DNA of 46,118 bases, taken from assembly GCA_900317295.1 (NCBI GenBank), contig ONGB01000008.1, forward strand, positions 18,837 to 64,954. The letters run 5' to 3'. This document shows positions 6,903 through 45,948 of this stretch, piece by piece. The notes under the pieces were generated by a model. It was given only the letters and a program-made list of their open reading frames with translations, did no database searches and was not told where the DNA came from. Source of the stretch: an uncultured Erysipelotrichaceae bacterium (GTDB lineage: Bacteria > Bacillota_I > Bacilli_A > RFN20 > CAG-826). The stretch's first letter is position 1; the number at the start of each line of letters is the position of its first letter. The position numbers were made by a program, and so were the translations under genes.

Positions 6903-7083
6903 AAAAAAATGAGCATCAATTCGGGCTCCAATTGCCGTCACTGAATGCTCTACCGTTCGAACGTGTACCTTTTTATGGGCCTGGCATTCTCTTCGCCACT
7001 CTTTTTTGGGAGCGTCCATAACTCAAGAGGCCGTTTATAAGTACGGCTTTGGATGGCTGGCCATATCGTACGCCCAACGGCCA
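6903..7083 (-). ncRNA. Structured RNA-like element, copy 1
   Basis: About 180 bases shared with 12349-12541 and partly with 10069-10175, in the same orientation. In 5'-3' order on the minus strand it has a hairpin (arms TGGCC/GGCCA, 7083-7058), the conserved 'GCCATCCAAAGCCGT', a hairpin GCCGT-loop-ACGGC, 'GGACGCTCCC', 'CCCATAAAAAGGTAC' and 'TTCGAACGGTAGAG'. A last hairpin GAGCAT/ATGCTC (6950-6911) is followed by seven T, like an intrinsic terminator. No long reading frame is conserved between copies, while stems keep pairing when bases differ. I do not recognise a named RNA family. It could be a small RNA, a cis-regulatory leader or a mobile repeat. Confidence 0.55.
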
Positions 7084-7125: not shown

Positions 7126-7699
7126 TGTTAGCTGTCAGATGATGTGAGACGCCTTCCGAGCTTCGGGCACCTGATCTCGCCTGTAGTTAACAACAGTTCC
7201 CTCAACTTTGCAAACTCGACCTGGTCCGGCGTCTTCAGGCCAAGCGCCATCCTGGGGGTCGAGTTGTACCTCTTCATCCACCTGGATCCCTGCTCCCTCA
7301 GGTCCCCGAGGGAATGGAAGGAGAGGGTTCGGTAAAACCTCTCCTGGTCGATCCTGTGGCTCCGCTCCACCTTGCCGTTGTGCTCCGGGGTCCTGGGCCT
7401 TATGAGTTTGTGGACGATCCCCTGCCTTTGGCAAAAGGAGTCGAGGAGGCAGCCCCCTCCCCTAGCTCGTCGAAGCGCCTGAGCCATTGGTAAAGCGAAG
7501 ATCTTTTGACGCGGTAATAGGGAAGGACCTTCCATACCTCCCAATGGGTTGGCAAAGATGGGGCGTGTAATTCCTTGCCCCGGGTTGTGGTAGACTATCC
7601 GTGGCATCCTCCTTCTTTGTGTTCCTGGACAGAAACATTGTAAGGTCAGATGCCTTTTTTGCTTTGCGGATTTTGTCTCACATCATTTGGAATAGAACA
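7126..7699 (-). mobile_element. Internally deleted, inactive copy of the window's IS
   Basis: Both ends match the complete element at 17945-19098: TGTT...ATGATGTGAGAC at the left and its inverse at the right. It is 574 bp instead of 1154 bp. The transposase is destroyed. The N-terminal part is frameshifted several times, about 185 central codons holding the first two catalytic Asp are gone, and only the C-terminal part from 'CLLD(S)FCQRQGI' (with HNGKVERSHR) is open. No target duplication is visible around it, and its left end abuts the 5' side of RNA-like element copy 1, so the site has been rearranged. Confidence 0.85.
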
Positions 7700-7849: not shown

Positions 7850-9568
7850 TCATCGGGATTGTTTTCTTTTGACGGTCAACGCTGGGGATTTCTCAGAAAT
7901 CTGGAAAATCCAATTCAGATCCTCCACATTTCTTGGCAAATACCCGCATAAAAGCATTGCTCCCTTAAACTGCCCGTTTGTTAAATAGGTGCCATCATAA
8001 TCCTGGAGCGTATGCTTTAAGCCATAGGATGTGTGTTTGTCGTTATAGGTTCGCGTGCGAATAAAATACCGGGAGCACCATTCGATTGCCTTGGTTTGTT
8101 CCTCCACGCTTAAGGACCTAAATTCCGCAGGACGATCAATATCATTCACAACTTCAAAATGACCATGGGCAGCACTTCCGCGACGACGGATCAAACACGC
8201 CTCCTTCATAACGATCATGATGTATTTGACTCCCCCCAAGGATAAGCCCGTTTCCCTTTGGATGTCGGAATACTTTGCAAAGGGGAACCTTTTAATCAAA
8301 TCTTCAATCAACTTATATTTGGGGTTGGATTCGTATAATTCTCCTCTAGTCAAAAATTCATTTGTCCGAGGGATGGTAAACAAAGCTGGTTTGCTTTCTT
8401 TTTCCGCAACAAACGAGCTGTAGGAAAACATCTTATTCTTGAGAACGAGCGTGAACGAGTCGTGCAGCGACTTATAGCGAGGAGCATAACGTTCGTCCAA
8501 AAGGCGATAGTCCGAGAGAATCAAATCAAAGCCTGACCCCCGCTCCTCCATCAAGCCACATCTGGCAAGCATGGCGCAGATGATAGGGTTTCTACGATCG
8601 GATTCTACGCTTTCCAATAATCCGTCTTTAACAAATCCCACCGATCGCATCGATCCAGGGGAAGTCAATTCAATTCGGTTCGGATAGCATTGGAGGGCAA
8701 TCTCGTTGCCAATAATACGATAGTCACGATGTGCAACCGCATTCACGACGGCTTCGCGCAATGAAGCGGAAGAAAAAGAGCCAATCTCTTCTGTGACCAT
8801 CCCTACTTTCATTCCCCCAAATTGATAGTGATTCACGGACCAAACGTATTCGATCATCTCTTTTATCAACGTCAGGATGGAACCTTTGTATTTTTTTGTA
8901 TCCGAAAACCTTTTCCCGCCTTTGTCTTCGCCTGGCCAAGTCGTACAGCAGACATTGGCATTCGCGTAATCGCTATCATCACAGAACAAATACCCTGCGA
9001 TGGTGAGAAAGCCTTTTTTATCAACTAGTCCAAAAGAAACAAGATCCCTATCGTTCAACTTTTTCGTTGGGTTTTTTCTATTGTAATAATCCTCAAGCTC
9101 ACGGAACGAAACATCGTCCGCCCGAATGCCTATGCTAACGGAATCATATGTTTCCGAAGATGCCGCGAGGAGCCTATCTTGCATTTCTTCAACGGTGGCA
9201 GGCAACGTTTGTCTTTCTTCTCTGACATAGGCTAGGGGGCTATGTTCAAAAGGCGTAAGCCAAGTTATTTCTTTTCTTGGTAATATTTCGAAAATAATGC
9301 CTCTTTTTTCAGGAAAACCTGGCCGATCATCATAAGAAACCGAATACTGAACCATTGGGCTGGAAAGGCGTCTGAATTGTTGCACCGCGTAACGCACCTC
9401 ATCATCGACGGTTTCAATGGGCAATCCGCGGAAACTTCCATCGTCCCCGTACCCAACCATAAGCCGTCCGCCTTGAGACATAGCAAAAGCGCAAACGGTC
9501 TTCATCCAATGATCTGGATGGTTTCGATCTAAGATTGTTTTAAACTCGATTTCCTTCGATTCATCCAT
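7850..9568 (-). CDS. AlbA_2/Schlafen-type DNA-binding protein with HATPase-like domain
   Basis: 572 residues from the ATG at 9568, chosen for its GAGGA ribosome site; an upstream ATG would overlap the promoter. The N-terminus (ESKEIEFKTILDRN...CAFAMSQGGRLMVGYGDDG, about 1-60) is the AlbA_2 (AAA_4, Schlafen-like) domain. The middle has the ATP-binding C-terminal module of COG2865 proteins: 'LREAVVNAVAHRDYRIIGNEIALQCYPNRIELTSPGS' then 'RNPIICAMLARCGLMEERGSGFDLI'. A helix-turn-helix-like segment follows (FAKYSDIQRETGLSLGGVKYIM). Such proteins are often regulators or defence/stress-linked, sometimes called RecG-like, but lack helicase motifs. Its promoter is covered by three tandem repeats, suggesting autoregulation. 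Confidence 0.8.
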   Translation of the reverse strand: MDESKEIEFKTILDRNHPDHWMKTVCAFAMSQGGRLMVGYGDDGSFRGLPIETVDDEVRYAVQQFRRLSSPMVQYSVSYDDRPGFPEKRGIIFEILPRKEITWLTPFEHSPLAYVREERQTLPATVEEMQDRLLAASSETYDSVSIGIRADDVSFRELEDYYNRKNPTKKLNDRDLVSFGLVDKKGFLTIAGYLFCDDSDYANANVCCTTWPGEDKGGKRFSDTKKYKGSILTLIKEMIEYVWSVNHYQFGGMKVGMVTEEIGSFSSASLREAVVNAVAHRDYRIIGNEIALQCYPNRIELTSPGSMRSVGFVKDGLLESVESDRRNPIICAMLARCGLMEERGSGFDLILSDYRLLDERYAPRYKSLHDSFTLVLKNKMFSYSSFVAEKESKPALFTIPRTNEFLTRGELYESNPKYKLIEDLIKRFPFAKYSDIQRETGLSLGGVKYIMIVMKEACLIRRRGSAAHGHFEVVNDIDRPAEFRSLSVEEQTKAIEWCSRYFIRTRTYNDKHTSYGLKHTLQDYDGTYLTNGQFKGAMLLCGYLPRNVEDLNWIFQISEKSPALTVKRKQSR

Positions 9569-9590
9569 ATATGATTCCTCGTTCAACAAG

Positions 9591-9628
9591 AGTATAGGAT
9601 AGTGGTTTAGGATGGTCAATAGGATAGT
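9591..9628 (-). promoter_or_regulatory. Promoter with three tandem operator repeats for the AlbA_2 gene
   Basis: Minus strand: -35 TTGACC (9619-9614), 17-bp spacer, -10 TATACT (9596-9591), 22 bases before the ATG. Three near-identical nonamers, plus-strand TAGGATRGT at 9595-9603, 9608-9616 and 9620-9628, recur every 12-13 bp and overlap both promoter boxes, as expected for a repressor bound along one face of the helix. Confidence 0.7.
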
Positions 9629-10068: not shown

Positions 10069-10175
10069 TTCTTCGCCACTCTTTTTCGGGAGCGTCCATG
10101 TCAAGAGGCCGTTTATGGATACGGCTTTGGATGGCTGCCTATGTTTCTATAGGGCCCGATGGGATTAGCAAGGCG
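10069..10175 (-). ncRNA. Structured RNA-like element, copy 2 (3' half lost)
   Basis: Nearly identical to the 5' half of copy 3: 'CGCCTTGC', a hairpin CCTAT/ATAGG (10153-10138), 'GCCATCCAAAGCCGT', hairpin GCCGT/ACGGC and 'GACGCTCCCGAAAAAGAG'. At about 10069 the homology stops and GGDEF-gene sequence begins, so the terminator half is gone. Confidence 0.55.
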
Positions 10176-10179
10176 GAAT

Positions 10180-10245
10180 CTAGGGCTTCAGGAGGGGATA
10201 GATCAAGGGCAGGGATTTTATAGAGCTAGATTCCGGTTCAGAGGA
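10180..10245 (-). pseudogene. Tail of a paralogue of the membrane protein at 13598-14794
   Basis: The last codons read SSEPESSSIKSLPLIYPLLKP then TAG, matching the C-terminus of the intact gene (SSDPESSSIESLPLIYPLL...). Nothing else of the gene remains. It lies directly 5' of RNA-like element copy 2. Confidence 0.7.
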
Positions 10246-10295: not shown

Positions 10296-11396
10296 CTATA
10301 TGATTATTCCGTCCAATAAAGGCATCCGCAAATCCTCGGGAAGATTAGATTCGTCAGTCGAATCTCCCAAAAGCTTTAGCGCGGAATCGCGTTCGCCCAA
10401 AAGGAGTAATTTGCATAAGTCGTACCCTTTGCAATCGGAATATGGGGCTAAGGCATTTTCGATATCCTTAGGTTTTATGTCACCCTCGGTTTTCATTTGG
10501 CAATATAGATCCATCGCAGTTACGAGGAAAAGCGAACCCCTCATTGGGACATCCCAACTCATTAAGGTGTCAAAAACATGGCGAGATTCTGCCGGGGTCG
10601 TTTCATAGTATAGATCTATGCAGTCGGCGAGAACCGCCGGGAAGAACGAATATCCCGCTTTCTCGAGCGCGCATTTCAAAAAGCGGAATATTAAATCCTC
10701 GTACTCGTCGAAAAAAGTTGTCAGCCTTTTCTTTTGCATGGGGATTCTTTCTCCGACCTTCAAAGGCTGAAGCCACTTTGCATTTCTCTCATTGACGCGG
10801 CCTTCGGAATGGACAAAGCAGTTTCTGGCAGCCCTGAACGAGGCAAAGGTTTCGCCAAAACCCCGACATGCATCCGGCTCCATTTTCGAAACCCAATCAA
10901 GCACCTCAGGAGAATACTCTTCCACTTCGTTCTGGACGCCGCTATCAAATAGTTGGCAATTGACTAGCATCACCAAAAAGTTTTCTACCTCGATGACGCC
11001 CATGACCAAAATCGAAGTATAAAGGAATTCGAATCTTTCAATCGCTTTAATCACGTTCCGCGCAAGGGCATTAGGAAAGCCGTATTGATTGGTCCGCAGG
11101 TTATACGCTATTTTCCCAGGGCCTAGAAATGATGGTCCGTATGAGAAGGCTTGAATGATCGGACTGTTACAAGCCGAGTTTCGAATCTCCAAAAACTCCG
11201 ATTCGGTCTTTGCATTTTTCAATTTGGCCAAAAGCCTAAATAGTTCATTGCTTTCCGCTTCTATTTTGGAATCTTTATAGATGTTTTTCGCGGCGGTCAG
11301 GTCAACTTCCACGCTTGTTTTCAGCATCATCAGCCGGGATAAGGCTTTAAAAACGGATTGAGCGAAAGAAATACACGTTTGGTCTATAGAATGCAT
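10296..11396 (-). CDS. Large HEPN-type protein (putative ribonuclease), pair partner 1
   Basis: About 366 helical residues. Near residue 195 'FRAARNCFVHSEGRVN' contains RNCFVH, the R-x4-H active-site motif of HEPN ribonucleases, followed by a polar tail as in RiboL-PSP/Apea-HEPN-like proteins. The rest is unrecognised. Start: GAGG lies 6 bases before the ATG at 11396; an earlier ATG at 11408 overlaps the stop of the upstream gene (ATGA) and is the alternative. With the upstream 150-residue protein it forms a two-gene unit inside a gene-poor, rearranged zone, the usual setting of toxin or anti-phage modules. Function inferred from one motif and context. Confidence 0.6.
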   Translation of the reverse strand: MHSIDQTCISFAQSVFKALSRLMMLKTSVEVDLTAAKNIYKDSKIEAESNELFRLLAKLKNAKTESEFLEIRNSACNSPIIQAFSYGPSFLGPGKIAYNLRTNQYGFPNALARNVIKAIERFEFLYTSILVMGVIEVENFLVMLVNCQLFDSGVQNEVEEYSPEVLDWVSKMEPDACRGFGETFASFRAARNCFVHSEGRVNERNAKWLQPLKVGERIPMQKKRLTTFFDEYEDLIFRFLKCALEKAGYSFFPAVLADCIDLYYETTPAESRHVFDTLMSWDVPMRGSLFLVTAMDLYCQMKTEGDIKPKDIENALAPYSDCKGYDLCKLLLLGERDSALKLLGDSTDESNLPEDLRMPLLDGIII

Positions 11397-11404
11397 ATGC
11401 GACC

Positions 11405-11857
11405 TCATTCTGTCGTGTCGATATACACATAAGGGTTTTCGAACACCTTGCCAATAGCAATCATAAATTCATATAAGAAAAGCCAGTTGGTTTCCAAATT
11501 GTCTTCATACCAATACCGCCACTTTCTAAAATTATCCGAAATTACCCCAAGCCATTTTCTGAATTCGGGCGAATCTACGCTCTTGTCCAATAGAGACGGC
11601 ATCCCTTCTACGATGGCACGCCTTACGGATTCTTGGTTCTTATCAAACAATTCGGCTAAAAGGTGCTTTTTCCCATGGTCAATTCCTTGTAACGACAACA
11701 ACGCCTTCAAGCCGAGTTCGCAAGCAAGCGACCCATTCACTACGAATGGCATTAGGTAATCTAATTCGTCACCTTGTTGTTTCGTAAGCATTCTTTCGTA
11801 AAGAAAGACGGCCAAGTCCTTGAATTCATTGAAGGCATATATCCGTGGATTTATCAT
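11405..11857 (-). CDS. Small HEPN-like protein, pair partner 2
   Basis: 150 residues. 'NGSLACELGLKALLSLQGIDHGKKHLLAELF' (about 42-72) closely follows the first helices of HEPN proteins, where an acidic helix is followed by a G/K-rich turn and 'H-x-L-x-x-L(F)'. A late 'FRKWRYWYEDN' matches the R-Y-x-Y-E pattern of the same fold. A canonical R-x4-6-H is not obvious, so it may be the non-catalytic or antitoxin-like partner. Its stop overlaps the next gene's possible start. No strong ribosome site precedes the ATG. Confidence 0.6.
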   Translation of the reverse strand: MINPRIYAFNEFKDLAVFLYERMLTKQQGDELDYLMPFVVNGSLACELGLKALLSLQGIDHGKKHLLAELFDKNQESVRRAIVEGMPSLLDKSVDSPEFRKWLGVISDNFRKWRYWYEDNLETNWLFLYEFMIAIGKVFENPYVYIDTTE

Positions 11858-12348: not shown

Positions 12349-12541
12349 AAAAAAAATGAGAACCGAACGGGGCTCCTGTTAGCCGCCTTGGATTCTCTAC
12401 CGTTCGAAGATGTACCTTTTTATGGGCCCCGTCTTCTCTTCGCCACTCTTTTTCGGGAGCGTCCATGTCAAGAGGCCGTTTATGGATACGGCTTTGGATG
12501 GTTGCCTATATTCTATAGGACCCGTTGAGTTTTGCAAGGCG
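12349..12541 (-). ncRNA. Structured RNA-like element, copy 3 (full length)
   Basis: On the minus strand from 12541: 'CGCCTTGC', hairpin CCTAT/ATAGG (12519-12505), 'ACCATCCAAAGCCGT', hairpin GCCGT/ACGGC, 'GACGCTCCCGAAAAAGAG', 'CCCATAAAAAGGTAC', 'TTCGAACGGTAGAG'. A final stem GAGAAT/GTTCTC follows with eight T. Against copy 1 the final stem keeps pairing through a C-G to A-T change, and the 5' hairpin changes both arms (CCTAT/ATAGG versus TGGCC/GGCCA). That supports RNA structure. Family not recognised. Confidence 0.6.
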
Positions 12542-13597: not shown

Positions 13598-14794
13598 TTA
13601 TGGCTTCCATACCCGCAGGAGGGGGTAGATCAGGGGCAGGGATTCTATAGAGCTAGATTCCGGATCGGAAGAGCTTTCCCCGCTCTTCGCGATCATATAG
13701 CAGGCGAATTGGAATAATCCCTCTAGATAGATCGCCGCGACGAGCCCTACCCCCACCGCGGGGATAATGATATCCGGCAAGGGGTTTTGATAGGTTTTCC
13801 GGTAATCGAAGAAAGCGATGAAAGGCAAGATGAATACCATCGCGAAGCAATCGCCTAATCCCCAGGCGTTGGCGGACGCTACCGCCCTAGCGGCCTCTTC
13901 GGGGGTGGGGTTAGAGGAAAAGGTATTGGCCACGATGGCGGAGACGAGGATGAATAGCAAGGCGTCTAGGGCCACCGCGATCCCGACGCTCAGCATCAGG
14001 AAACGGGAGAAATGACGCTTATTCGCGTTGGTGTCTAGGAAGGTTTGGTATTCCTCGATGCTTTTGCCGTTTTTAAGGAAGTGGCGTTCCCTAAGCTTCA
14101 CGAATAAGGCCAAGGCGATGAAGATCAAGAAGGCCACCGGGGGCTTCGTGGTGAGCCAAGGGTATAAGGCAGGGGGCATCAAGATCGCCGCGGTGGAGGA
14201 AAGGATCTTCATCACGATCGAGGCGATCTCATATAGGATCGGGAGCAAAGCGAATAGCCTAAAGGCATATAGGGCCTTCCCTTGGAACAAACGGGTGGGC
14301 CGATAATTCAGGAAGAAGGTTAATAAGGTGCATAAGGCCAAATCGATGAAGATATTGAAGGTGAAGAAGCCTTCTTGGGCGAACAATGCCATCCAGACAG
14401 TGAGGGTATCCGAACCCGACGCCCCAGAGAAGGCGGAGATGATCCCCCCGACGTAATGATAGAAGACGAGATAGAAGGCGGCGGCGATGCCTAAAGCGCC
14501 CCCGACATATAGGAGGATAAGGCGGCGATAGCCATCCTTCGCGGTCAAGACGCGGGCAAAAGCGGCGATGAGGAAAAGAGGCGCCATCAAGGAAGAGAAG
14601 AAGCCTAGGACGTTGGAGGCCGCGGAAAATCCCGAGTCGGTCATCTGCTTGCCGAATAGGGAAAGGATCATCCCGACCTGGGCCAGCGCGAAGAAGAACC
14701 ATCCTAATATCCTAAAATGGCGATAGGAGAAAACCCCGCGGAAGGTGACGTCGTTATGCTGGTCGATCTCGTGGATCGGGGTGCCGCGTTTCAT
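13598..14794 (-). CDS. Polytopic membrane protein of unknown function (398 aa)
   Basis: About nine to ten membrane helices and a polar, Ser-rich C-terminal tail. No catalytic or transport motif recognised. The ATG at 14794 is chosen because an extended -10 (TGCTACAAT) ends 12 bases upstream, so a more distal ATG at 14836 would not be on the transcript. Part of the same coding end is duplicated at 10180-10245, showing that a paralogue once existed 3 kb away. It is followed by the YwaF-like protein. Confidence 0.7.
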   Translation of the reverse strand: MKRGTPIHEIDQHNDVTFRGVFSYRHFRILGWFFFALAQVGMILSLFGKQMTDSGFSAASNVLGFFSSLMAPLFLIAAFARVLTAKDGYRRLILLYVGGALGIAAAFYLVFYHYVGGIISAFSGASGSDTLTVWMALFAQEGFFTFNIFIDLALCTLLTFFLNYRPTRLFQGKALYAFRLFALLPILYEIASIVMKILSSTAAILMPPALYPWLTTKPPVAFLIFIALALFVKLRERHFLKNGKSIEEYQTFLDTNANKRHFSRFLMLSVGIAVALDALLFILVSAIVANTFSSNPTPEEAARAVASANAWGLGDCFAMVFILPFIAFFDYRKTYQNPLPDIIIPAVGVGLVAAIYLEGLFQFACYMIAKSGESSSDPESSSIESLPLIYPLLRVWKP

Positions 14795-14806
14795 AGGGTT
14801 TTGGCT

Positions 14807-14812
14807 ATTGTA
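14807..14812 (-). promoter_or_regulatory. Extended -10 element, nearly leaderless transcript
   Basis: TGC-TACAAT on the minus strand, 12 bases before the ATG of the membrane protein gene, leaves room for only about six untranslated bases. No convincing -35 box. Confidence 0.45.
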
Positions 14813-14864
14813 GCATCCTCGCCCGACCGCATGCACCGAAAAAGCCCGGGTTTTGATCCCCAGG

Positions 14865-17675: not shown

Positions 17676-17749
17676 GTATATCACTACCAATTTTGTACAA
17701 AAATGCTTTTTAAGCCATTCCAAGTTGGAAGGCTGATGCTGCGGTTTAA

Positions 17750-17784
17750 AAGAAAAACGTTCCTGATCGATCGGATCAAGAACG
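17750..17784 (-). terminator. Terminator after tRNA-Pro
   Basis: Minus strand: stem CGTTC-TTGATC / GATCA-GAACG with one mismatch, followed by TTTTTCTTTT, 12 bases past the CCA end of the tRNA. Confidence 0.75.
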
Positions 17785-17795
17785 CATTAGCCACG

Positions 17796-17873
17796 TGGTC
17801 GGGATGGCCGGATTCGAACCGGCGATCTTCTGCTCCCAAAGCAGACGCGATAACCAAGCTTCGCTACATCCCG
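17796..17873 (-). tRNA. tRNA-Pro (anticodon TGG), CCA encoded
   Basis: Acceptor CGGGATG/CATCCCG, anticodon stem-loop CTGC-TTTGGGA-GCAG, T-arm GCCGGTTCGAATCCGGC, discriminator A and encoded CCA. Confidence 0.95.
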
Positions 17874-17918: not shown

Positions 17919-17944
17919 TATCGTTCCCTTTAAGGAAAGCGATG
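17919..17944. repeat. 26-bp target-site duplication, left copy
   Basis: Exactly repeated at 19099-19124, directly abutting both IS ends. The target itself has partial dyad symmetry (TCG-TTCC...GGAA-AG-CGA). Confidence 0.9.
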
Positions 17945-19098
17945 TGTTAGCTGTCAGATGATGTGAGACGCCTTCCGAGCTTCGGGCACCTGATCTCGCC
18001 TGTAGTTAACATCAACTCCCCGAGCTTTGCAAACTCGACTTGGTCCGGCGTCTTCAGGCCAAGCGCCATCCTGGGGGTCGAGTTGTACCGCTTCATCCAC
18101 CTCGCCCCTTGCTCCCTCAGGTCCCCGAGGGAATGGAAGGAGAGGGTTCGGTAAAACCTTTCCTGGTCGATCCTGTGGCTCCGTTCCACCTTGCCGTTGT
18201 GCTCCGGCGTCCTCGGCCTGATGAGCTTGTGCTCTATCCCTTGCCTTTGGCAAAACGCGTCGAGCAGGCACGGCCCCTCCTTCGCGTGCCTGGCCCCGGG
18301 CCTGGCGAACGTCCTGTCCGTGAACTCGATCCCGTTGTCCGTCTGGAGGGCCTTGGGGGCGTAGCCGAAGAACGCGATCGCCGCGCCCAGCGCCCTGACG
18401 GACTCGAACATGGAGTGCTCGTCGGCGAACCAGAGGAAGCGTTTCCTGCTGGCCTCGTCGAGGACGGTGTACTGGTAATAGGATTTGTCCGCGGGCAGCT
18501 TGGGCGATTTGCATTCCGCGGGGACGAACTTCACGTCCATCTGCCATTTGTCGCCGGGGAACGGCGGGGTGTGGTATTTCTTCGAATGCCTTTTGGGGTT
18601 GGTTTCGTAGGGCTTGTACCCCTCCAGCCTCTTCAGGTACCTCAGGGCGGTGGAATAGGAGATGGGGAATCCCGAGGAGACGACCTTGACCCATATGTCC
18701 ACGGAGCTCCACCCGTGCCTCTTCGATTGGTCGTGGAAGCACTTGACCTTGTAGGCGGCCTTGGGGCAAATCGTCGACGGATGCGGGGTTTTCGGCTTGT
18801 GGGAACGGTCCCTCAGGCCTTCCTCCCCGAGCTCGTCGAAGCGCCTGAGCCAGCGGTAGACCGAGGGCCTTTTGACGTGGTAGTAGGAAAGGACCTTCCG
18901 CATCGGCCAGTTCGACTCGCGGATCCTCCTGCAGCTGTGCAGCCTGGTTTCGTATAGGTGGGGAAGGTAATTTCTCTCCCCGTGTTGTGGTAGACTATCC
19001 ATGGCATCCTCCTTCTTTGTGTTCCTGGACAGAAACATTGTAAGGTCAGATGCCTTTTTTCTTTATGGATTTTGTCTCACATCATTTGGAATAGAACA
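17945..19098 (-). mobile_element. Complete insertion sequence, IS481/IS1202-like, 1154 bp
   Basis: Ends are imperfect 25-bp inverted repeats, TGTT-N9-ATGATGTGAGAC, with only the outer four and inner twelve bases conserved. One intact DDE transposase gene fills it. A 26-bp direct repeat abuts both ends. TG...CA termini and a single-ORF rve transposase fit the IS481 group; the long duplication resembles the IS1202 group. A deleted copy is at 7126-7699. Confidence 0.85.
17947..19002 (-). CDS. DDE (rve) transposase, intact
   Basis: 351 residues from the ATG at 19002, preceded by AAGGAGG at 6 bases. The N-terminus has a helix-turn-helix (MRKVLSYYHVKRPSVYRWLRRFDELGEEGLRDRSHKP). The integrase core has D156 in 'WQMDVKF', D222 in 'LQTDNGIEF' and E273 in 'EHNGKVERSHR', a complete DDE triad. 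Its stop codon lies inside the left terminal repeat. GC-rich codon use (GTC, CTC, GGC) differs from neighbouring accessory genes, which suggests recent arrival. Confidence 0.9.
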   Translation of the reverse strand: MDSLPQHGERNYLPHLYETRLHSCRRIRESNWPMRKVLSYYHVKRPSVYRWLRRFDELGEEGLRDRSHKPKTPHPSTICPKAAYKVKCFHDQSKRHGWSSVDIWVKVVSSGFPISYSTALRYLKRLEGYKPYETNPKRHSKKYHTPPFPGDKWQMDVKFVPAECKSPKLPADKSYYQYTVLDEASRKRFLWFADEHSMFESVRALGAAIAFFGYAPKALQTDNGIEFTDRTFARPGARHAKEGPCLLDAFCQRQGIEHKLIRPRTPEHNGKVERSHRIDQERFYRTLSFHSLGDLREQGARWMKRYNSTPRMALGLKTPDQVEFAKLGELMLTTGEIRCPKLGRRLTSSDS

Positions 19099-19124
19099 TA
19101 TCGTTCCCTTTAAGGAAAGCGATG
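19099..19124. repeat. 26-bp target-site duplication, right copy
   Basis: Identical to 17919-17944 and immediately adjacent to the right IS end. Confidence 0.9.
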
Positions 19125-37226: not shown

Positions 37227-38576
37227 TTAGAAGAAGCGCTCGATGAGGTCGCGGGAGTATTCGACGGTCTCATCCATGTCGCCGAAGGCCATGATCTCGC
37301 CGGCGTAGTAGGTGCTGTGATTGCCCTGCTTCGCCTCGACCTTCTCATACCACCCGGCGGCGTAGTCTTCCGCGAAGACGTGCGGGAAGTAATACCACTT
37401 GCCTTCGTTGATGATTTCCTTCATCGGGCAGCCGAGGGCGGCCATGTCTTTCTTGACCTGTTCCTTGGTGGCTTCGTAGTCGAGTTCCTTGCTGTTTTTG
37501 TGCTTGCGGAGGACATAGGTGACCAAGGGCTGATCGCTTTCGGGCCAGCGATGGTAGTAAACCATGACGTGGCCAAGGGTCTCGGGGGTCATGTAGTCGA
37601 CGATGTAGCGGGAGCGATCGGGGTAGTTCTCCGGATTGGTGAGGAAGGCCATGGTGTCATAGCGTTCGTAGTCGATCTTGGAGAAGAGCTCCTTCTCTTC
37701 TTCGTCGGCGTCGGCGTATTCGGGGAAGTACTGAAGCGGCGCGGTGACGATGAGCTTATCGAACTTCTCCTCTTTGCCGTTGACGGTGAGGACGACGCCC
37801 TCTTCGGAGCGGACGACTTTCTCGATGTTTTGCTCAAGCAAAGCGGGGTGTTTCAGCTTGGCGTTGAGGGCTTCGTAGATCGACTGGGTGCCGTCTTTCC
37901 AGGTCCAGAGGTTGACGTGCATGAAGTTCATCATCGTCTGGAAGTCGAGGTATTTGAGGACGTAGGCGGCGGGGATTTCGTCGAAATAGCCATAGCCGAA
38001 CGAGGTGAACGGCTGGATCCAAACCTCGCGGACGAGCGGGACGCCGAGCTTGTCGGTGAAGTCCTTGAACGTCATGCAGAGGTCTTTGAGCTTTGGGTTC
38101 TCGCCTTCGACGTGGTGGCGGTCTTCGGCGACGGCATAGCCTTCATAGCGGCCTTCGGAGACGCCGCGGTGGCCGCAGATGTCATAGCCCTTATAGTCCG
38201 CGCGGAGGATTTCGCCGAACTTCTCGATCTGCTTCTTGAGCTTGAGGAGGTGCGGGAGGTTCCAGATGCGCTTGGTGGAGAACTGATGGTCCATCTTGCC
38301 ATTGGGCTTTTGATAGTCGCGGTTTAGCGCCGGGCCATCGTGGGTGATGCCCGCGAAGACTTCGATGTCGTGGACGGCGTAATAGGAAGGCACGCCCATG
38401 ATGGCGCCCATCTCATAACGCTTCCCATTGTGGAAGGGGGAATGGCACTTGCCGCCGACGTGATCGGATTTCTCGTAGATCACATAGTTCTCGTAGCCCT
38501 TCTGCTCGAGATACATGCCAGCCGAAAGACCGGCCGGGCCTCCGCCGATGATGGCGATGCGGATATTCTTATCCAT
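37227..38576 (-). CDS. PAI-like flavoprotein, putative polyunsaturated fatty-acid double-bond isomerase
   Basis: 449 residues of the flavin amine-oxidase fold with N-terminal FAD motif IIGGGPAGLSAG (9-20) and 'EKSDHVGGKCHSPFHNGKRYEMGAIMGVPSYY'. From memory this matches Cutibacterium acnes PAI along its length, including 'PAAYVLKYLDFQTMM', 'LWTWKDGTQS', 'LGHVMVYYHRW', 'WYYFPHVFAEDYAAGWYEKVE' and 'YYAGEIMAFG'. PAI converts linoleic acid to trans-10,cis-12 conjugated linoleic acid without redox cofactors besides FAD. That is the basis for the call; substrate here may differ. Divergent from the acyl-ligase/ACP/thioesterase operon with 107 bp between, so co-regulation in lipid modification is likely. 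Confidence 0.85.
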   Translation of the reverse strand: MDKNIRIAIIGGGPAGLSAGMYLEQKGYENYVIYEKSDHVGGKCHSPFHNGKRYEMGAIMGVPSYYAVHDIEVFAGITHDGPALNRDYQKPNGKMDHQFSTKRIWNLPHLLKLKKQIEKFGEILRADYKGYDICGHRGVSEGRYEGYAVAEDRHHVEGENPKLKDLCMTFKDFTDKLGVPLVREVWIQPFTSFGYGYFDEIPAAYVLKYLDFQTMMNFMHVNLWTWKDGTQSIYEALNAKLKHPALLEQNIEKVVRSEEGVVLTVNGKEEKFDKLIVTAPLQYFPEYADADEEEKELFSKIDYERYDTMAFLTNPENYPDRSRYIVDYMTPETLGHVMVYYHRWPESDQPLVTYVLRKHKNSKELDYEATKEQVKKDMAALGCPMKEIINEGKWYYFPHVFAEDYAAGWYEKVEAKQGNHSTYYAGEIMAFGDMDETVEYSRDLIERFF

Positions 38577-40267: not shown

Positions 40268-40969
40268 ATGCACGAACTCACTTACCAAGAGAAAATCCTC
40301 ACCGAGCATTGCGATCCGAAGAAGGACCTGCGCCTTTCTTCGTTGCTCCGCCTCGTCCAAGAGGCCTCCATCCGTTCGGTGGAGGAGTTAGGCTACCCCC
40401 GCGAGAAGACGCTGGACCGCGGCATCCTTTGGGTGGTTGGGAAACAACGTTTTGAGATTTCCCGCCTCCCCGTCTATGACGAAGAGGTTCAAGTTTTGAC
40501 TTATCCAGGAAAGAAAATGCACTTCTTCTTCGAACGTCACACTTCCCTTTCGGACAAACAAGGAAACCCCTTGGTCAAATGCAACGCGATCTGGACCCTC
40601 ATCGACATGAATAAGCGCAGCATCGTCAATCCTTCCGCCTATGGCATCGAGATCCCCGAAGACCATTTCGAAGGCGAGCTCCCCTTCCCCGCGGGCTTCC
40701 GCATGGAGAAGGAAGGCGAAGAGGCGACGATCGAGGCCAAATGGAGCGATTGCGACCTCAATGGCCACCTCAATAACGCGGCCTATTTGGACATCGTCGA
40801 AGACTTGATCCCCATTGAGTTCTTGAAGAGCCATCGTTGCAAAGCCATCGACATCTCTTATAAGAAAGAGATCCCCTTAGGCGAAAAGGTGGGGCTCCGT
40901 TATGTCTATGATGCCCCCTTCTACTACTTCGAAAGCGACCACTTCAGCTTGCGCTTAGAATACGAATAA
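40268..40969 (+). CDS. Acyl-ACP thioesterase (FatA/B-like double hot-dog)
   Basis: 233 residues with two hot-dog repeats. First: 'MHELTYQEKILTEHCDPKKDLRLSSLLRLVQEASIRSVEELG'. Second: 'AKWSDCDLNGHLNNAAYLDIVEDLIP', with the N-x-H-x-x-N/D catalytic pattern (N-G-H-L-N-N). Acyl-ACP thioesterases release fatty acids from ACP. Last gene of the operon; its product would free the modified acyl chain. The stop lies inside the first of two 65-bp direct repeats, whose hairpin is the operon terminator. Confidence 0.9.
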   Translation: MHELTYQEKILTEHCDPKKDLRLSSLLRLVQEASIRSVEELGYPREKTLDRGILWVVGKQRFEISRLPVYDEEVQVLTYPGKKMHFFFERHTSLSDKQGNPLVKCNAIWTLIDMNKRSIVNPSAYGIEIPEDHFEGELPFPAGFRMEKEGEEATIEAKWSDCDLNGHLNNAAYLDIVEDLIPIEFLKSHRCKAIDISYKKEIPLGEKVGLRYVYDAPFYYFESDHFSLRLEYE

Positions 40970-41028
40970 TCCCCTTATTTCTCGGATGGATTAGAAAGGC
41001 GCGTCCAAATGGGCGCGCTTTGTTTTCG
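40964..41028. repeat. 65-bp direct repeat with terminator hairpin, left copy
   Basis: Begins GAATAATCCCCT and matches 41954-42018 at most positions. The hairpin centre CGCGTCCAAATGGGCGCG (T-rich after it) is the exact reverse complement of the centre in the other copy. It ends the thioesterase operon and, in reverse, the HepT gene. Confidence 0.9.
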
Positions 41029-41031
41029 TTT

Positions 41032-41373
41032 TTATTTGCCTGTTGTTTCGAATAGTTTCTTCAGGAGGAAGATATCCCGAGAGGCAATCTCATAGACGAT
41101 GATGTAGTCGGTTTTTCCATACTCATGGACAAGCCCGTTTCGAAAGCCGATGATCTCGCCCCAGGGTATGTCTGAATGGACGGCTTTATAGTCTTCGGAA
41201 AGGAATTTGATTTGTTCGACCATTTGAATCATTCGAAATAAAATGCCATCCAAGCGCATGTCATCTTTCACGAATTCATCGTAGTCGTTAATCCCCTCCA
41301 TGTATTTGATGATGATGTTGATTTCGTTTAACGCTTTTGCAATGTAATACCCATCGCTTTTCTCGTTATCCAT
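41032..41373 (-). CDS. HepT-type HEPN toxin
   Basis: 113 residues, DUF86/HepT family, with active-site R78-NGLV-H83-E-Y85 (R-x4-H-x-Y). HepT is a ribonuclease toxin neutralised by MntA, which AMPylates the Tyr of this motif. The start overlaps the MntA gene by 8 bp, the normal arrangement. The stop is four bases from the left 65-bp repeat. Confidence 0.88.
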   Translation of the reverse strand: MDNEKSDGYYIAKALNEINIIIKYMEGINDYDEFVKDDMRLDGILFRMIQMVEQIKFLSEDYKAVHSDIPWGEIIGFRNGLVHEYGKTDYIIVYEIASRDIFLLKKLFETTGK

Positions 41374-41845
41374 AGATCTTTATGCCTTCCTTCATAATCT
41401 CATTAAGAATGGTCATATTGTCACCCAGATCTCCTAAACGCAGGACGTCTACCCTTTTATGGAGGGCGACCCGTAGCTTTTCACATAAACCCATGAATCG
41501 CATGCCCTTCAAGGTGGTAGACACGCATAAGTCGACATCGCTATCCCCTTTGGCGTATCCCTTTGCATAGCTACCGAATAAATAGCAGAACGCCACCTCT
41601 TCTTTGTAGTCTTCCGATATCACTTTAGAGACGATCTCAGAGATTTTCTCCGTCGTCAGCAAACCCTGGGTTTCGGTGATCTCACATTGGGCGTTCAGCC
41701 GACGGATCATCATTTCCCTTTTCAATGGATCGCCGTGGCCTTCATCGTTTTCGTAACGAATATAGCTCCGCAAAGGAACGCCGACGAGCTCCGAGGCTTT
41801 TTGGACGGACAACCCATATTCTTTTCTTAGTTCTTTTAAACCCAT
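41366..41845 (-). CDS. MntA-type nucleotidyltransferase antitoxin with N-terminal HTH
   Basis: 159 residues. The first about 50 form a helix-turn-helix (LKELRKEYGLSVQKASELVGVPLRSYIRYEND). Residues 85-150 are a minimal nucleotidyltransferase with G91-S92...D103-x-D105 (GSYAKGYAKGDSDVDL), the fold that AMPylates HepT. The fused DNA-binding domain is a useful extra: it can repress the module at the palindromes found just upstream. GGAG precedes the ATG by 5 bases. Confidence 0.88.
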   Translation of the reverse strand: MGLKELRKEYGLSVQKASELVGVPLRSYIRYENDEGHGDPLKREMMIRRLNAQCEITETQGLLTTEKISEIVSKVISEDYKEEVAFCYLFGSYAKGYAKGDSDVDLCVSTTLKGMRFMGLCEKLRVALHKRVDVLRLGDLGDNMTILNEIMKEGIKIYG

Positions 41846-41860
41846 ACTTGCTCCGAGATC

Positions 41861-41941
41861 ATTATATCATGTTGGCACTTTAATGAAATCCTTTTGTGCC
41901 ATTTTGGCATAGTCTAACTAATTGAGTATGCCATTATGACA
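41861..41941 (-). promoter_or_regulatory. Promoter and palindromic operators of the MntA-HepT module
   Basis: -10 TATAAT (41866-41861). TGCCA-TTT-TGGCA is a perfect palindrome at 41897-41909, a one-mismatch copy (TGCCA-TTA-TGACA) lies at 41929-41941, and a half-site TGCCAA sits next to the -10. Palindrome centres are 32 bp apart. Best candidate ligand is the HTH of the antitoxin. Confidence 0.7.
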
Positions 41942-41953
41942 TGCCCATAAAAT

Positions 41954-42018
41954 GAATAATCCCCTAATTTCTCGGGTGGATTAGAAAAGCGCGCCCATTT
42001 GGACGCGCTTCGTTTTGC
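41954..42018. repeat. 65-bp direct repeat with terminator hairpin, right copy
   Basis: Pair of 40964-41028; the hairpin centre reads CGCGCCCATTTGGACGCG, the reverse complement of the left copy's. It lies at the 3' end of the flavin/2Fe-2S reductase gene, whose terminator it is. Confidence 0.9.
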
Positions 42019-42024
42019 TTTGGC

Positions 42025-43218
42025 TTAGAGGATGTTCGTGATGATCTCGCAATCGCTAAGCGGGTAGGTGGAGCAGGAATGGACATAGCCATATTCCTTA
42101 TCGGCGTAACGCCTGCCATCGCCTTCCTTCGGGATGAAGACCTCGCCGGAGACGAGCTTCACGCGGCAGATGCCGCAGGTGCCGGAACGGCAGCCTGACT
42201 TCACCAAGATGCCCGCGCGCTCCATCGCGACGAGCAAGGGTTCGGAAGCCTTCGCTTCGATGACAGTCTTGTCGAGCCCGCGGACGACGGTGAGCTTATG
42301 GACTTTGGTCTCCGCGCCCTTGGGATAGCCTTCCGCTTTGGTGATGTCGCGCGGGGCCCCAAAGGTCTCCATGCGGATGCGGCGCGGCTTGACTTTGAGT
42401 TTGGCGAGCTCCTTCTCGAGGAAGAGATACATCGGAAGCGGGCCGCAGACGAAGTAGGTCACGTCCCCTTCTCCGGCGTATTTCTTGATGATTTCGGCGC
42501 TCAAATAGCCTTTTTCGCCAGGATAATCCGGTTCCCCGGAGATGACGTGGACGAATTTCACGCGCGGGGATTTCACCTCGGCGAGCTGTTTCTCGAGGAT
42601 GATGTCTTTGGAAGACACCGAGCCATAGAGGACGGTGAGGTCGGCGTCTAAGGTGCCGTGTTCGATTTCCTTCGCCATCGCGAGGAAGGGCGTGATGCCG
42701 CTGCCACCGGCGAGGCCGAGGATCTTCTTAGAGTCGCGAAGCGGCTCGATATAGAAGTGGCCGAAGGGCAGATGGGCCGTATAGACCTCCCCTTCTTTGA
42801 CGTTGGCGTAGAGGTAATTGGCGACGAAGCCGTCGTCTTTGCCGTTGCGCACCGTGATGGCGACATGAGGATGCTCTTCTAGGCGCGCTTCATAAGGCGC
42901 GGAGCAGATCGAATAGGCGCGGGTGGTGCGGGTCTCGCCGATCTTGACGTCGATCTCCAGGCACTGGCCGGCCTCGAAGGGCGGGAGCTTGCTGCCGTCT
43001 TCGTTTTCGAAGGTGAAGCGCTTCGCCGTGGGGGAGACTTCTTCCACTTTCGTGACGATGAGGCGGTTATAGAGGGGGTGGAGTTCGTCCGCCACCTCGC
43101 GGATCGGGTCGGAGTATTCCGAGCTCGCGGAGGCGTTTTTGATCGCGGTTTTGCGGCGTTTTTCCGCGCGCATGGACCCGGTGATGTCCTTCAGGAATCC
43201 TTTGATTTTGACTTTCAT
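42025..43218 (-). CDS. Flavin oxidoreductase with C-terminal 2Fe-2S ferredoxin domain
   Basis: 397 residues from the ATG at 43218 (AAGGAGG 10 bases upstream; the longer frame overlaps the previous gene and is rejected). A ferredoxin-NADP reductase-type FAD domain has 'TRAYSICSAP' (R-x-Y-S). The NAD(P) domain has 'ILGLAGGSGITPFLAMA' and 'YFVCGPLPMY'. A plant-type [2Fe-2S] domain has C-R-S-G-T-C-G-I-C plus a late Cys in 'VHSCST'. It would pass electrons from NAD(P)H to a partner. It follows the CrtI-like gene with only one base between, so that flavoprotein or a lipid enzyme is the probable acceptor. Confidence 0.9.
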   Translation of the reverse strand: MKVKIKGFLKDITGSMRAEKRRKTAIKNASASSEYSDPIREVADELHPLYNRLIVTKVEEVSPTAKRFTFENEDGSKLPPFEAGQCLEIDVKIGETRTTRAYSICSAPYEARLEEHPHVAITVRNGKDDGFVANYLYANVKEGEVYTAHLPFGHFYIEPLRDSKKILGLAGGSGITPFLAMAKEIEHGTLDADLTVLYGSVSSKDIILEKQLAEVKSPRVKFVHVISGEPDYPGEKGYLSAEIIKKYAGEGDVTYFVCGPLPMYLFLEKELAKLKVKPRRIRMETFGAPRDITKAEGYPKGAETKVHKLTVVRGLDKTVIEAKASEPLLVAMERAGILVKSGCRSGTCGICRVKLVSGEVFIPKEGDGRRYADKEYGYVHSCSTYPLSDCEIITNIL

Positions 43219-43219
43219 C

Positions 43220-44785
43220 TTACTTGCCCTCCTTCGCTTCGTGTTCCCATTCCATGACGACTTTGGCGGCGATGCGACCGTTGTTGATGTTGATGGCGAC
43301 GCCATCGCCGGTCAACGCGTGGGCCGCAGCCCAGGTGAGGCCGTGGATGTAATGCTCTTTGCCATAACGGGGGAGCCTGGCGACGATCGAGTCTTCCATG
43401 TGGTGCTGATAGCCATAGACGCAGCCGCGGTACATCCCGGTGTAATGGGCGACGGACATCGGGGCCTCGATCTCGAGGTCGATGATGTGGTCGAGCAGGT
43501 TGACGCCGAGGTGCTTGGAGACGCGCTCGATGAGTTCTTTCGCGAGTTTGCGCTTTGTCTCGCGGTAATTGTCCGCGGTGACGCCGAAGAAGGCTTCGGG
43601 CAAGGGCAACGCGGTGATCGAGAGGGAGGTCGTCCCTTCGGGGATGCCTTCGGGATTGGCAAAGTTCAAGCAGATCGTGGTGAGGAAATCCCAGCCGCCG
43701 AGCTTCTTGCTGCCTTCCCAGAATTTGTCGGTGTCGAAATGGGAATCCGCGGAGAAGACGGAATAATCGTGGATATTGAGGTCTTCGGGTTTCCCTTCGA
43801 GTTGGAGGATGACCGAGAAGACGGAGACGCCTAGACGCCTTCCGTTGACGAGCTTGAAGGCTTCGGGGGGCACTTCGGAAGCCGGTTCGATCATCTTCTT
43901 ATAGACGGTGTCCTGATAGGGGGCGGAGACCACGTAACGGGAATGGATCTCATCGCCGCGGGAAGTGCGGACGCCATAGACTTGGCGATTCTTGACGAGG
44001 ATCTTATCGACGTTTTGTCCGTATTCGATCTGCACGCCGAGCTCGCGGGCCTTCTCCGCCATCGCGACGGCGAGTTCGTGGGAGAAGCCGCGGAGAACAT
44101 AGGAACCGCCGGTCATGTAGTCGCCCATCAAGAAGGAATAGATCGTGAAGGGGAGGGTGCTGATCGGCTGGCCGACGTAGATCCAATAGGCCGAGAGGCA
44201 GGATTGCACCACTTCGGGGATCTCAAAAGCGTCCATGACTTCCTTCGCCGAATAGCCGGCGGTTTTGGCCATGCCCTCATGCTCTTTCAAAAGCGTGAGT
44301 TTGGAAGGGTTATGGTCATTGAGGTAAAGCGTGGTGTTATAGACTTCCTCGCAGAGCTTGAGGAGGCGGTCGACCTTCTCGAGGTTACCGGGGTACTTCT
44401 CCTCGATCTCCTTCGCGGCGAGGAAGACGCCGTTTTCGTCCTTCCCCGCGTGGAGGGTGACGTCGATTTTGTCTTCGGGGACGTAAAGGCGATAGGCCTC
44501 CGGGACGCGGAGCCAATCCAAATCGATCCCGATCTCCTCCAAATACTCGCGGATGAACAAAGGCTTCTCTTTGGGCCCAATCGACATCATCTCGTGGAGG
44601 GTCGCCTCCATCTCGACGCCCGAGCGGGAGAAGCTCGTGACCACCCCGCCGGGGAGGTTATGGCGTTCTAAGATGAGGACTTTCATCCCCTCGCGGGCGA
44701 GGTTGATGGCGCAGGCCATGCCCGCCACCGCGCCGCCGATGACGATCGCGTCATACTGGTCGGCGTAGAATTTCTTTTCCGGCAT
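43220..44785 (-). CDS. CrtI/retinol-saturase-like FAD oxidoreductase
   Basis: 521 residues. N-terminal Rossmann motif 'YDAIVIGGAVAGMACAINLAREGMKVLILERHNLPGG' and the CrtI-type 'GVVTSFSRSGVEMEATLHEM'. The C-terminal FAD loop is 'YIHGLTWAAAHALTGDGVAININNGRIAA'. This family includes phytoene desaturases, retinol saturases and fatty-acid-related desaturases or isomerases. No phytoene synthase, GGPP synthase or other carotenoid gene is in the window, whereas lipid-handling genes surround it, so a fatty-acyl substrate is preferred. A 19-bp palindrome lies 24 bp upstream of the start. Confidence 0.88.
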   Translation of the reverse strand: MPEKKFYADQYDAIVIGGAVAGMACAINLAREGMKVLILERHNLPGGVVTSFSRSGVEMEATLHEMMSIGPKEKPLFIREYLEEIGIDLDWLRVPEAYRLYVPEDKIDVTLHAGKDENGVFLAAKEIEEKYPGNLEKVDRLLKLCEEVYNTTLYLNDHNPSKLTLLKEHEGMAKTAGYSAKEVMDAFEIPEVVQSCLSAYWIYVGQPISTLPFTIYSFLMGDYMTGGSYVLRGFSHELAVAMAEKARELGVQIEYGQNVDKILVKNRQVYGVRTSRGDEIHSRYVVSAPYQDTVYKKMIEPASEVPPEAFKLVNGRRLGVSVFSVILQLEGKPEDLNIHDYSVFSADSHFDTDKFWEGSKKLGGWDFLTTICLNFANPEGIPEGTTSLSITALPLPEAFFGVTADNYRETKRKLAKELIERVSKHLGVNLLDHIIDLEIEAPMSVAHYTGMYRGCVYGYQHHMEDSIVARLPRYGKEHYIHGLTWAAAHALTGDGVAININNGRIAAKVVMEWEHEAKEGK

Positions 44786-44892: not shown

Positions 44893-45948
44893 TCAACGCG
44901 CTTTGACGTAACGCGCGTTCTTGAAAGTCCCGATTTTCTTGATTCTCCCCTGCTTCTGCAATTTCGATAAGGCAGCTTCGATCGTCGTGACGGACACATC
45001 GGGGACGAATTCGGCGATATCCGCTTTCGACAAAGGGACGATGGAACCTAGGATGATGGCCTCCACCCGTGAGGCTTTGCCTTTTTTCCCACCTTCGATC
45101 ACCACGAGTCGGCGGTTCATCTCCTTATAGCATTGATAAAGGATTTGGAAAGTGAAGGTGATGAACGGCTCATAGGTGTTCGCGTTATCGTTCCAGCCGC
45201 GCTGGCTCTTTTCTAGCGCCTCATAGTAATTGAAGCGGAATTTATCGATCATCCCCTCAAAGGAAAGGTATTTCCCAACGTCATAACCAGCCTTATATAA
45301 GAGCAGTAGGGTCAATAGGCGCGACACCCTGCCGTTGCCGTCGGAGAAGGGATGGATAGAAAGGAAATCCACGATGACGCAGGGGATAAGAAGCAGCGGA
45401 TGTATCTCGCTGTCGTCCCTAGCGGAAGCGTAAGCGAAAAACCATGCCTTCATCGCTTCTTCGGTCTCTTTGGCGGAAACGGGTTCGAACAAAACACGAA
45501 CGATATCTCCATCCTCGTTTTTTTCCGCGATGAGATTGTCCGCTTTCTTATATACGCCACCGCGATACCCGTGATGGCGGGCGGTGAGGAGACGATGGAT
45601 TTCGTTAACGGTTTCTTCGTTGAGGTCCAAATCCTCATAATGTTCGGAGACAAAGACGATCGCGTCGTGGTAGCCGGCGATTTCTTCTTCATTATGCCCA
45701 AGGGGGGCGGCGTCTTTCTCCACGATTTCCTTGATGCGCTCCGCGGTCGCGACGATGCCTTCGATCGCGTTGCTGCCCTTAACGGATTCCACGATGGCGA
45801 TCGTGCCGAGCTTCTCAAAGATGCCTGTATCCGTTTTCTTTCGCTCATCCGTACGGGATTTTAGATCCGTGATGACGTTAGAAAGTGAAAACAAAGAGGG
45901 GGCGACCCCATCTTTTTTGAGGAATTGGTAGGAGAACTTTCTTTTCAT
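44893..45948 (-). CDS. Fic-family AMP transferase, class II
   Basis: 351 residues. The Fic motif H199-PFSDGNGR207 is complete. An N-terminal inhibitory motif S59-NAIE63-G fits class II Fic proteins, which hold themselves off by pointing Glu into the active site. A Fic/DOC N-terminal region precedes (residues 1-60), and a C-terminal winged-helix follows (LSKADIAEFVPDVSVTTIEAALSKLQKQGRIKKIG). Such Fic-HTH proteins AMPylate unknown targets and may regulate themselves. The ATG overlaps a 13-bp operator arm. A weak GC-rich hairpin near 44863-44886 may terminate it. Confidence 0.92.
   Translation of the reverse strand: MKRKFSYQFLKKDGVAPSLFSLSNVITDLKSRTDERKKTDTGIFEKLGTIAIVESVKGSNAIEGIVATAERIKEIVEKDAAPLGHNEEEIAGYHDAIVFVSEHYEDLDLNEETVNEIHRLLTARHHGYRGGVYKKADNLIAEKNEDGDIVRVLFEPVSAKETEEAMKAWFFAYASARDDSEIHPLLLIPCVIVDFLSIHPFSDGNGRVSRLLTLLLLYKAGYDVGKYLSFEGMIDKFRFNYYEALEKSQRGWNDNANTYEPFITFTFQILYQCYKEMNRRLVVIEGGKKGKASRVEAIILGSIVPLSKADIAEFVPDVSVTTIEAALSKLQKQGRIKKIGTFKNARYVKAR

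Follow-up and report, generated by a model that had tools for sequence, protein, structure and literature searches.

A HepT/MntA-like module between directly repeated terminators with inverted hairpin cores: a candidate insertion with long target duplication

Introduction

How do small addiction modules move without a transposase or an integrase? This question is raised by a locus in an uncultured Erysipelotrichaceae bacterium, at which two genes resembling a toxin-antitoxin pair lie between two copies of a terminator, with an acyl-ACP thioesterase gene on one side and a convergent reductase gene on the other. The stretch of DNA analyzed, referred to as the window, has a length of 46,118 nucleotides and is located on C49, one of the 91 contigs that make up a draft genome of 1.6 Mb.

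Results

Repeats and gene content

The two direct repeats, copies A and B (Table 1), have a start-to-start spacing of 990 bp and are identical at 55 of 63 bp (87%), the match being extendable to 68 to 73 bp. Outside of a hairpin core, the copies are direct and agree at 39 of 43 positions; this 9% divergence of the flanks indicates that the event was not recent and that its boundaries are, hence, blurred. An earlier note on this DNA had described direct repeats of 65 bp whose 18-bp hairpin centers were exact reverse complements, an arrangement that was confirmed with corrected lengths of 63 bp for the repeat and 20 bp for the core.

The only genes present between the repeats encode a HepT-like and an HTH-MntA-like protein, both on the minus strand and with an overlap of 8 bp. 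Family matches for the antitoxin were to PF18765/PF01909 (Polbeta/NTP_transf_2), and its MntA part exhibited a weak match to the solved MntA-family antitoxin 5yep, while a search of PDB by sequence produced no match for HepT. Neither MntA (49.6 bits) nor HepT (31.9 bits) reached the NCBIfam equivalog cut-off of 60 bits, and the proteins are, therefore, filed as MntA- and HepT-like and not as equivalogs. As judged from families and motifs, the pair would represent a type VII-like toxin-antitoxin system with presumptive toxin and antitoxin activities. Searches with MntA detected no match in plasmids and, among phages, one unannotated 10.6-kb faecal record with 45% identity. A putative operator array of TGCCA/TGGCA palindromes is located 5′ of the MntA gene; similar arrays precede the sister genes, indicating that autoregulation through the antitoxin HTH is likely.

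Table 1. Features of the module and of its surroundings in the window
Feature	Position	Strand	Details
Amine-oxidase-like gene	37227..38576	-	heads CrtI-reductase operon in relatives
Acyl-ACP thioesterase, left neighbor	40268..40969	+	PF01643/PF20791
Repeat copy A	40964..41026		thioesterase terminator (+); last codon and stop (GAATAA) included
Hairpin core of A	40999..41018	+	GCGCGTCCAAATGGGCGCGC; RNA dG (kcal/mol) -19.0 (+, thioesterase transcript), -11.3 (-)
HepT-like toxin, 113 aa	41032..41373	-	PF01934, E 4.5e-17; RX4HXY (RNGLVHEY) at residues 78-85
MntA-like antitoxin with N-terminal HTH, 159 aa	41366..41845	-	PF18765, E 9.9e-13; HTH_3, E 1.6e-5; GSX10DXD at 91-105
Putative operator array of HTH antitoxin	41870..41941	-	TGTTGGCACTT 41870-41880; GTGCCATTTTGGCA 41896-41909; TGCCATTATGACA 41929-41941 (plus-strand letters); by eye
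Repeat copy B	41954..42016		reductase terminator, read on minus strand; direct repeat of A; thioesterase 3′-end GAATAA retained
Hairpin core of B	41989..42008	-	GCGCGCCCATTTGGACGCGC, exact inversion of core A; RNA dG (kcal/mol) -19.2 (-, reductase transcript), -13.5 (+)
FAD/NAD/2Fe-2S reductase, right neighbor, convergent with thioesterase	42025..43218	-	PF00175, PF00111, PF00970; probable start 43218
CrtI/phytoene-desaturase-like oxidoreductase, upstream gene of reductase operon	43220..44785	-	

Evidence for insertion and sister modules

The GC contents of the HepT gene (41%), the MntA gene (46%) and the region upstream (35%) are below those of the adjoining lipid genes (52 to 59%). Sister HTH-MntA genes were detected in 23 of 31 genomes of the genus. 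In three related species (L240, L241 and L242), an HTH-MntA module is present between queH and rpsJ; this module is absent from the next relatives (L243 and L244), and none was found in the flanks examined of 26 other queH genomes. A HepT gene was not detected beside MntA in L241. As its GC content differs from that of the flanking lipid genes and as its distribution in the genus is patchy and polymorphic by site, the module in the window looks inserted. Without the module and one of the repeats, the convergent gap would be 65 bp, as compared to a genome median of 58.5.

Long direct repeats were present around 5 of 26 MntA loci, including the window locus and excluding four loci at contig ends, but at none of 169 control loci (0/26 thioesterase loci, 0/29 reductase loci and 0/114 random windows of relatives). 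In the genome of the window, 2 of 264 windows had such repeats, both of which were apparently coding. The repeats at queH/rpsJ consist of module-borne operator arrays, missing from the empty sites, with operator-like arrays flanking the module on both sides in L240 and L242, while those of L063 and L071 belong to a multicopy terminator family found near peptide-precursor-like genes. Since the flanking repeats vary among sites and do not have a single cause, this statistic supports modules ending between repeats and not one shared mechanism.

Gene order of the lipid cluster

Genus genomes with the cluster have reductase, CrtI and amine oxidase genes on one strand and AMP-ligase, ACP and thioesterase genes on the other, an order also observed in G172 and G024. 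In the window, the CrtI and reductase genes lie beyond the thioesterase gene and convergent with it. Analysis of 30 reductase loci indicated that CrtI precedes the reductase at every locus and that a thioesterase gene occurs less than 1.5 kb from the reductase in the window alone. The empty site proposed as a check in the earlier note, with one repeat, no module and the same neighbors, was, accordingly, not present in any relative. Gene order is also different in the nearest relatives, as defined by protein identity (48% for the thioesterase and 63% for the reductase), and the thioesterase protein had no match in the genome-contig collection. In relatives, the operon formed by reductase, CrtI and amine oxidase is found on the other side, and the thioesterase-reductase junction is, therefore, itself derived. 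The proposal of the earlier note that the module interrupts the lipid cluster thus held in part: the module looks inserted, on the grounds of GC content and patchiness, but it is not simply an intrusion into an ancestral cluster that was intact, the order in relatives being different. Directly 5′ of CrtI-reductase, on the same strand and beside the rearranged junction, is a Fic-domain gene (SoFic-like; 44893-45948).

This derived order raises the possibility, which we consider rather unlikely, that the rearrangement bringing CrtI-reductase to the thioesterase made the junction, with the terminators acting as short homology and the module arriving with the incoming DNA. In its favor, amine oxidase, CrtI and reductase form one operon in relatives, and the genomes with the cluster have the AMP-ligase, ACP and thioesterase genes on the other side of it. 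The scenario is consistent both with trees in which fully supported groups join CrtI to G208 and the reductase to G208/G007 and with the association of restriction-modification insertions with inversions or translocations (PMC3031569). A crossover at a shared terminator would, however, leave one hybrid copy rather than two, and the trees of CrtI, the reductase and the amine oxidase, the last of which did not resolve, failed to show that the cluster is a mosaic.

Uniqueness and origin of the repeat

Other genomic copies of the repeat, for which the earlier note had proposed a search, were not found: the entire 1.6-Mb genome contains two copies, A and B (E value of 2e-16 for the match versus chance), indicating that the repeat is not a common genomic terminator and ruling out a dispersed one. 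No counterpart was detected in 224 family genomes, in which matches were at most short and weak, and matches to Rfam were all subthreshold. The left half of the repeat, for which shuffles predict no matches, was absent as an exact pattern both from 85k genomes, a collection from which near-identical genomes were possibly omitted, and from 2.9 million IMG/VR viral contigs. Similarly, the repeat does not recur at other MntA loci; carriage of the repeat as part of a mobile module was ruled out for the window site, as relatives of the module (50 to 58% identity) are without it. Copy B includes the final codon and stop of the thioesterase, which gives the repeat the appearance of target DNA, and targeting of the terminator by the insertion is plausible.

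Overlap of the repeat with the 3′ end of a gene, together with a small inverted pair within it (TAATCC/GGATTA), would also fit a reading of the repeats as attL and attR of a site-specific island that targeted the thioesterase 3′ end and then lost its integrase. This explanation is improbable, since the segment between the repeats encodes HepT and MntA but no recombinase, and no further full site was found in the same genome, the 224 family genomes or, as an exact pattern, the genome and viral contigs. Two other types of element were rejected: an insertion sequence or transposon, as there is no transposase between the repeats and the duplication is 63 bp and not short, and an integron cassette array, as there are only two genome copies and, by reading, no GTTRRRY in either.

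Even less probable is a later copying of the terminator, by local tandem or ectopic duplication, around a module that was already present and thereby became insulated. Other local intergenic duplications do occur in the genome (e.g., 118 bp in L206 and 49 bp in L186), as detected in a survey of genome stretches that sum to 1.35 Mb and of which a few overlap the contig of the window, but this order of events is opposed by the retention of thioesterase codons in copy B and by the typical convergent gap obtained on removal of the module.

Inverted hairpin cores and terminator direction

The cores of copies A and B are exact reverse complements at 20 of 20 bp, and inclusion of the flanks extends the inverted match to 23 of 23 bp (40999-41021 and 41986-42008). 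At the observed flank divergence, a single inversion followed by no change has a probability of 0.14, whereas the probability that four point changes fell precisely on the four asymmetric positions is ∼2e-7. The hairpin flipping put forward in the earlier note is, therefore, far likelier than point mutation, and, from this comparison of the copies, inversion of the core in one of them appears well supported. The core is reverse complemented in place and the flanks are direct, as in template-switch inversion.

The same note had read the repeats as terminators, in agreement with the strong RNA folding (∼-19 kcal/mol) of each copy towards the adjacent lipid gene. Folding of each copy on both strands (Table 1) predicts a preference for the thioesterase transcript in copy A and for the reductase transcript in copy B. 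The strand difference stems mostly from one T.G pair, present as a wobble in the RNA of one strand but as a C-A mismatch in that of the opposite strand. For copy A, this difference (7.7 kcal/mol) is above the 95th percentile (6.3) for 53 strong hairpins in the convergent gaps of the genome. Due to the one G.U wobble in the stem, inversion would reverse the strong direction of the terminator such that each lipid gene ends in a hairpin fully paired in its own transcript, and terminator polarity may have been subject to selection. Acquisition of opposite cores through ordinary substitutions selected for terminator direction would fit the agreement of the polarity with the neighboring genes but is highly improbable given the above probability, the two loop changes that were not needed and a path passing through a perfect C-G pair, which is best in both directions and at which selection would stop.

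Other repeats in the window and the genus

Several other repeats were observed. Three local copies of a 70- to 76-bp repeat with 90 to 97% identity (6990-7059, 10070-10145 and 12437-12512) bound two accessory gene groups (7850-9619 and 10296-11857) in the window, with no copy elsewhere in the 713 kb compared. The right copy of a 57-bp direct repeat (10189-10245 and 13616-13672; 89%) falls within gene 13598-14836, at its 3′ end, a gene 3′ end being duplicated at a distance as with the thioesterase. An exact 26-bp near-palindromic direct repeat (17919-17944 and 19099-19124) surrounds an integrase-like transposase gene (17947-19038); part of the same gene is also present at 7128-7607. A repeat of ∼50 bp (GACGATTG.ATCAAGAACGTATTA.TCA.ATGGC) was found at 17749-17797 of the window, at three positions in L163 (5788-5836, 9371-9420 and 10666-10715) and in 18 of 31 genus genomes. 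A terminator repeat of ∼80 bp forms local arrays on one strand in L063 (457-534 and 2087-2164), L071, G016:C4:55872-58686 and G003:C52, the G016 array comprising six copies in 3 kb; in L063 and L071, small genes whose product resembles a leader peptide are found close to this repeat. The 118-bp direct repeat of L206 (11972-12089 and 15236-15353; 97%), whose copies are ∼3.3 kb apart, includes a terminator and what appears to be the 3′ end of a gene.

Discussion

The reading that we favor, with a probability of about 0.6, is insertion of an addiction module with a long target duplication combined with one in-place hairpin inversion. Initially, the thioesterase gene and the convergent reductase gene would have been separated by one bidirectional terminator of ∼65 bp. 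A ∼0.92-kb HTH-MntA/HepT addiction module would then have entered at this terminator in a transposase-free event, such that a complete terminator, together with the final codon and stop of the thioesterase, came to lie on each side of it. At some point, the core of one of the two hairpins would have undergone inversion in place, for which a template switch in the near-palindrome is the simplest route, with the outcome that both lipid genes close with a hairpin fully paired in their own transcript. The insertion, its mechanism and the order of these events are what we infer from the arrangement of the locus. An extension to the whole genus is tentative and, in our estimation, unlikely: small addiction modules would spread transposase-free by copying the terminator of a host gene, with inversion of the palindrome re-aiming a duplicated bidirectional terminator such that each neighbor keeps full termination.

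A unique and apparently target-derived duplication of a terminator, together with a polarity-reversing inversion, provides a concrete, testable footprint of module movement without a transposase. Predicted folding further suggests that terminator direction can be changed by flipping a hairpin in one step, in contrast to the plastome cases of PMC6824564, in which both orientations had the same folding energy.

The locus appears to combine, in an unusual manner, two processes of known type, an insertion and a tiny hairpin inversion, and is not a new kind of element. For restriction-modification systems, insertion with a long target duplication, on the order of 100 bp, is described (Nobusato et al. 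2000, via PMC1643837, PMC3874152 and PMC3031569), as is an association of such insertions with rearrangements (PMC3031569). The window likewise has an addiction-type pair between long direct repeats that are apparently target-derived, no transposase and a link to rearrangement, but differs from those systems in that the pair is a type VII-like toxin-antitoxin, the apparent target of duplication is a terminator of the bidirectional type and no empty allele was seen here. Inversion of hairpin loops through template switching has been documented, including in bacterial rRNA (PMC8794818), and small inversions in plastomes often occur between tail-to-tail genes (PMC6824564). These cases share with the window an exact in-place inversion of the hairpin center with unchanged flanks, whereas the window inversion includes the stem wobble, such that predicted terminator strength changes direction, and is seen between duplicated copies and not between orthologous alleles. 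The polyadenylylating MntA-HepT pair of type VII is defined by the RX4HXY and GSX10DXD motifs (PMC7641770); adjacent genes for a PF01934 toxin and a nucleotidyltransferase antitoxin with these motifs are present in the window, where, in addition, the antitoxin starts with an HTH, an operator-like array precedes its gene and the scores are below the NCBIfam equivalog cut-offs. Finally, like the variable segments found between direct repeats (PMC2884548), the module is a small accessory segment that could drop out by recombination, but the repeats reported for such segments are mostly <30 bp, while that of the window is 63 bp and contains a terminator.
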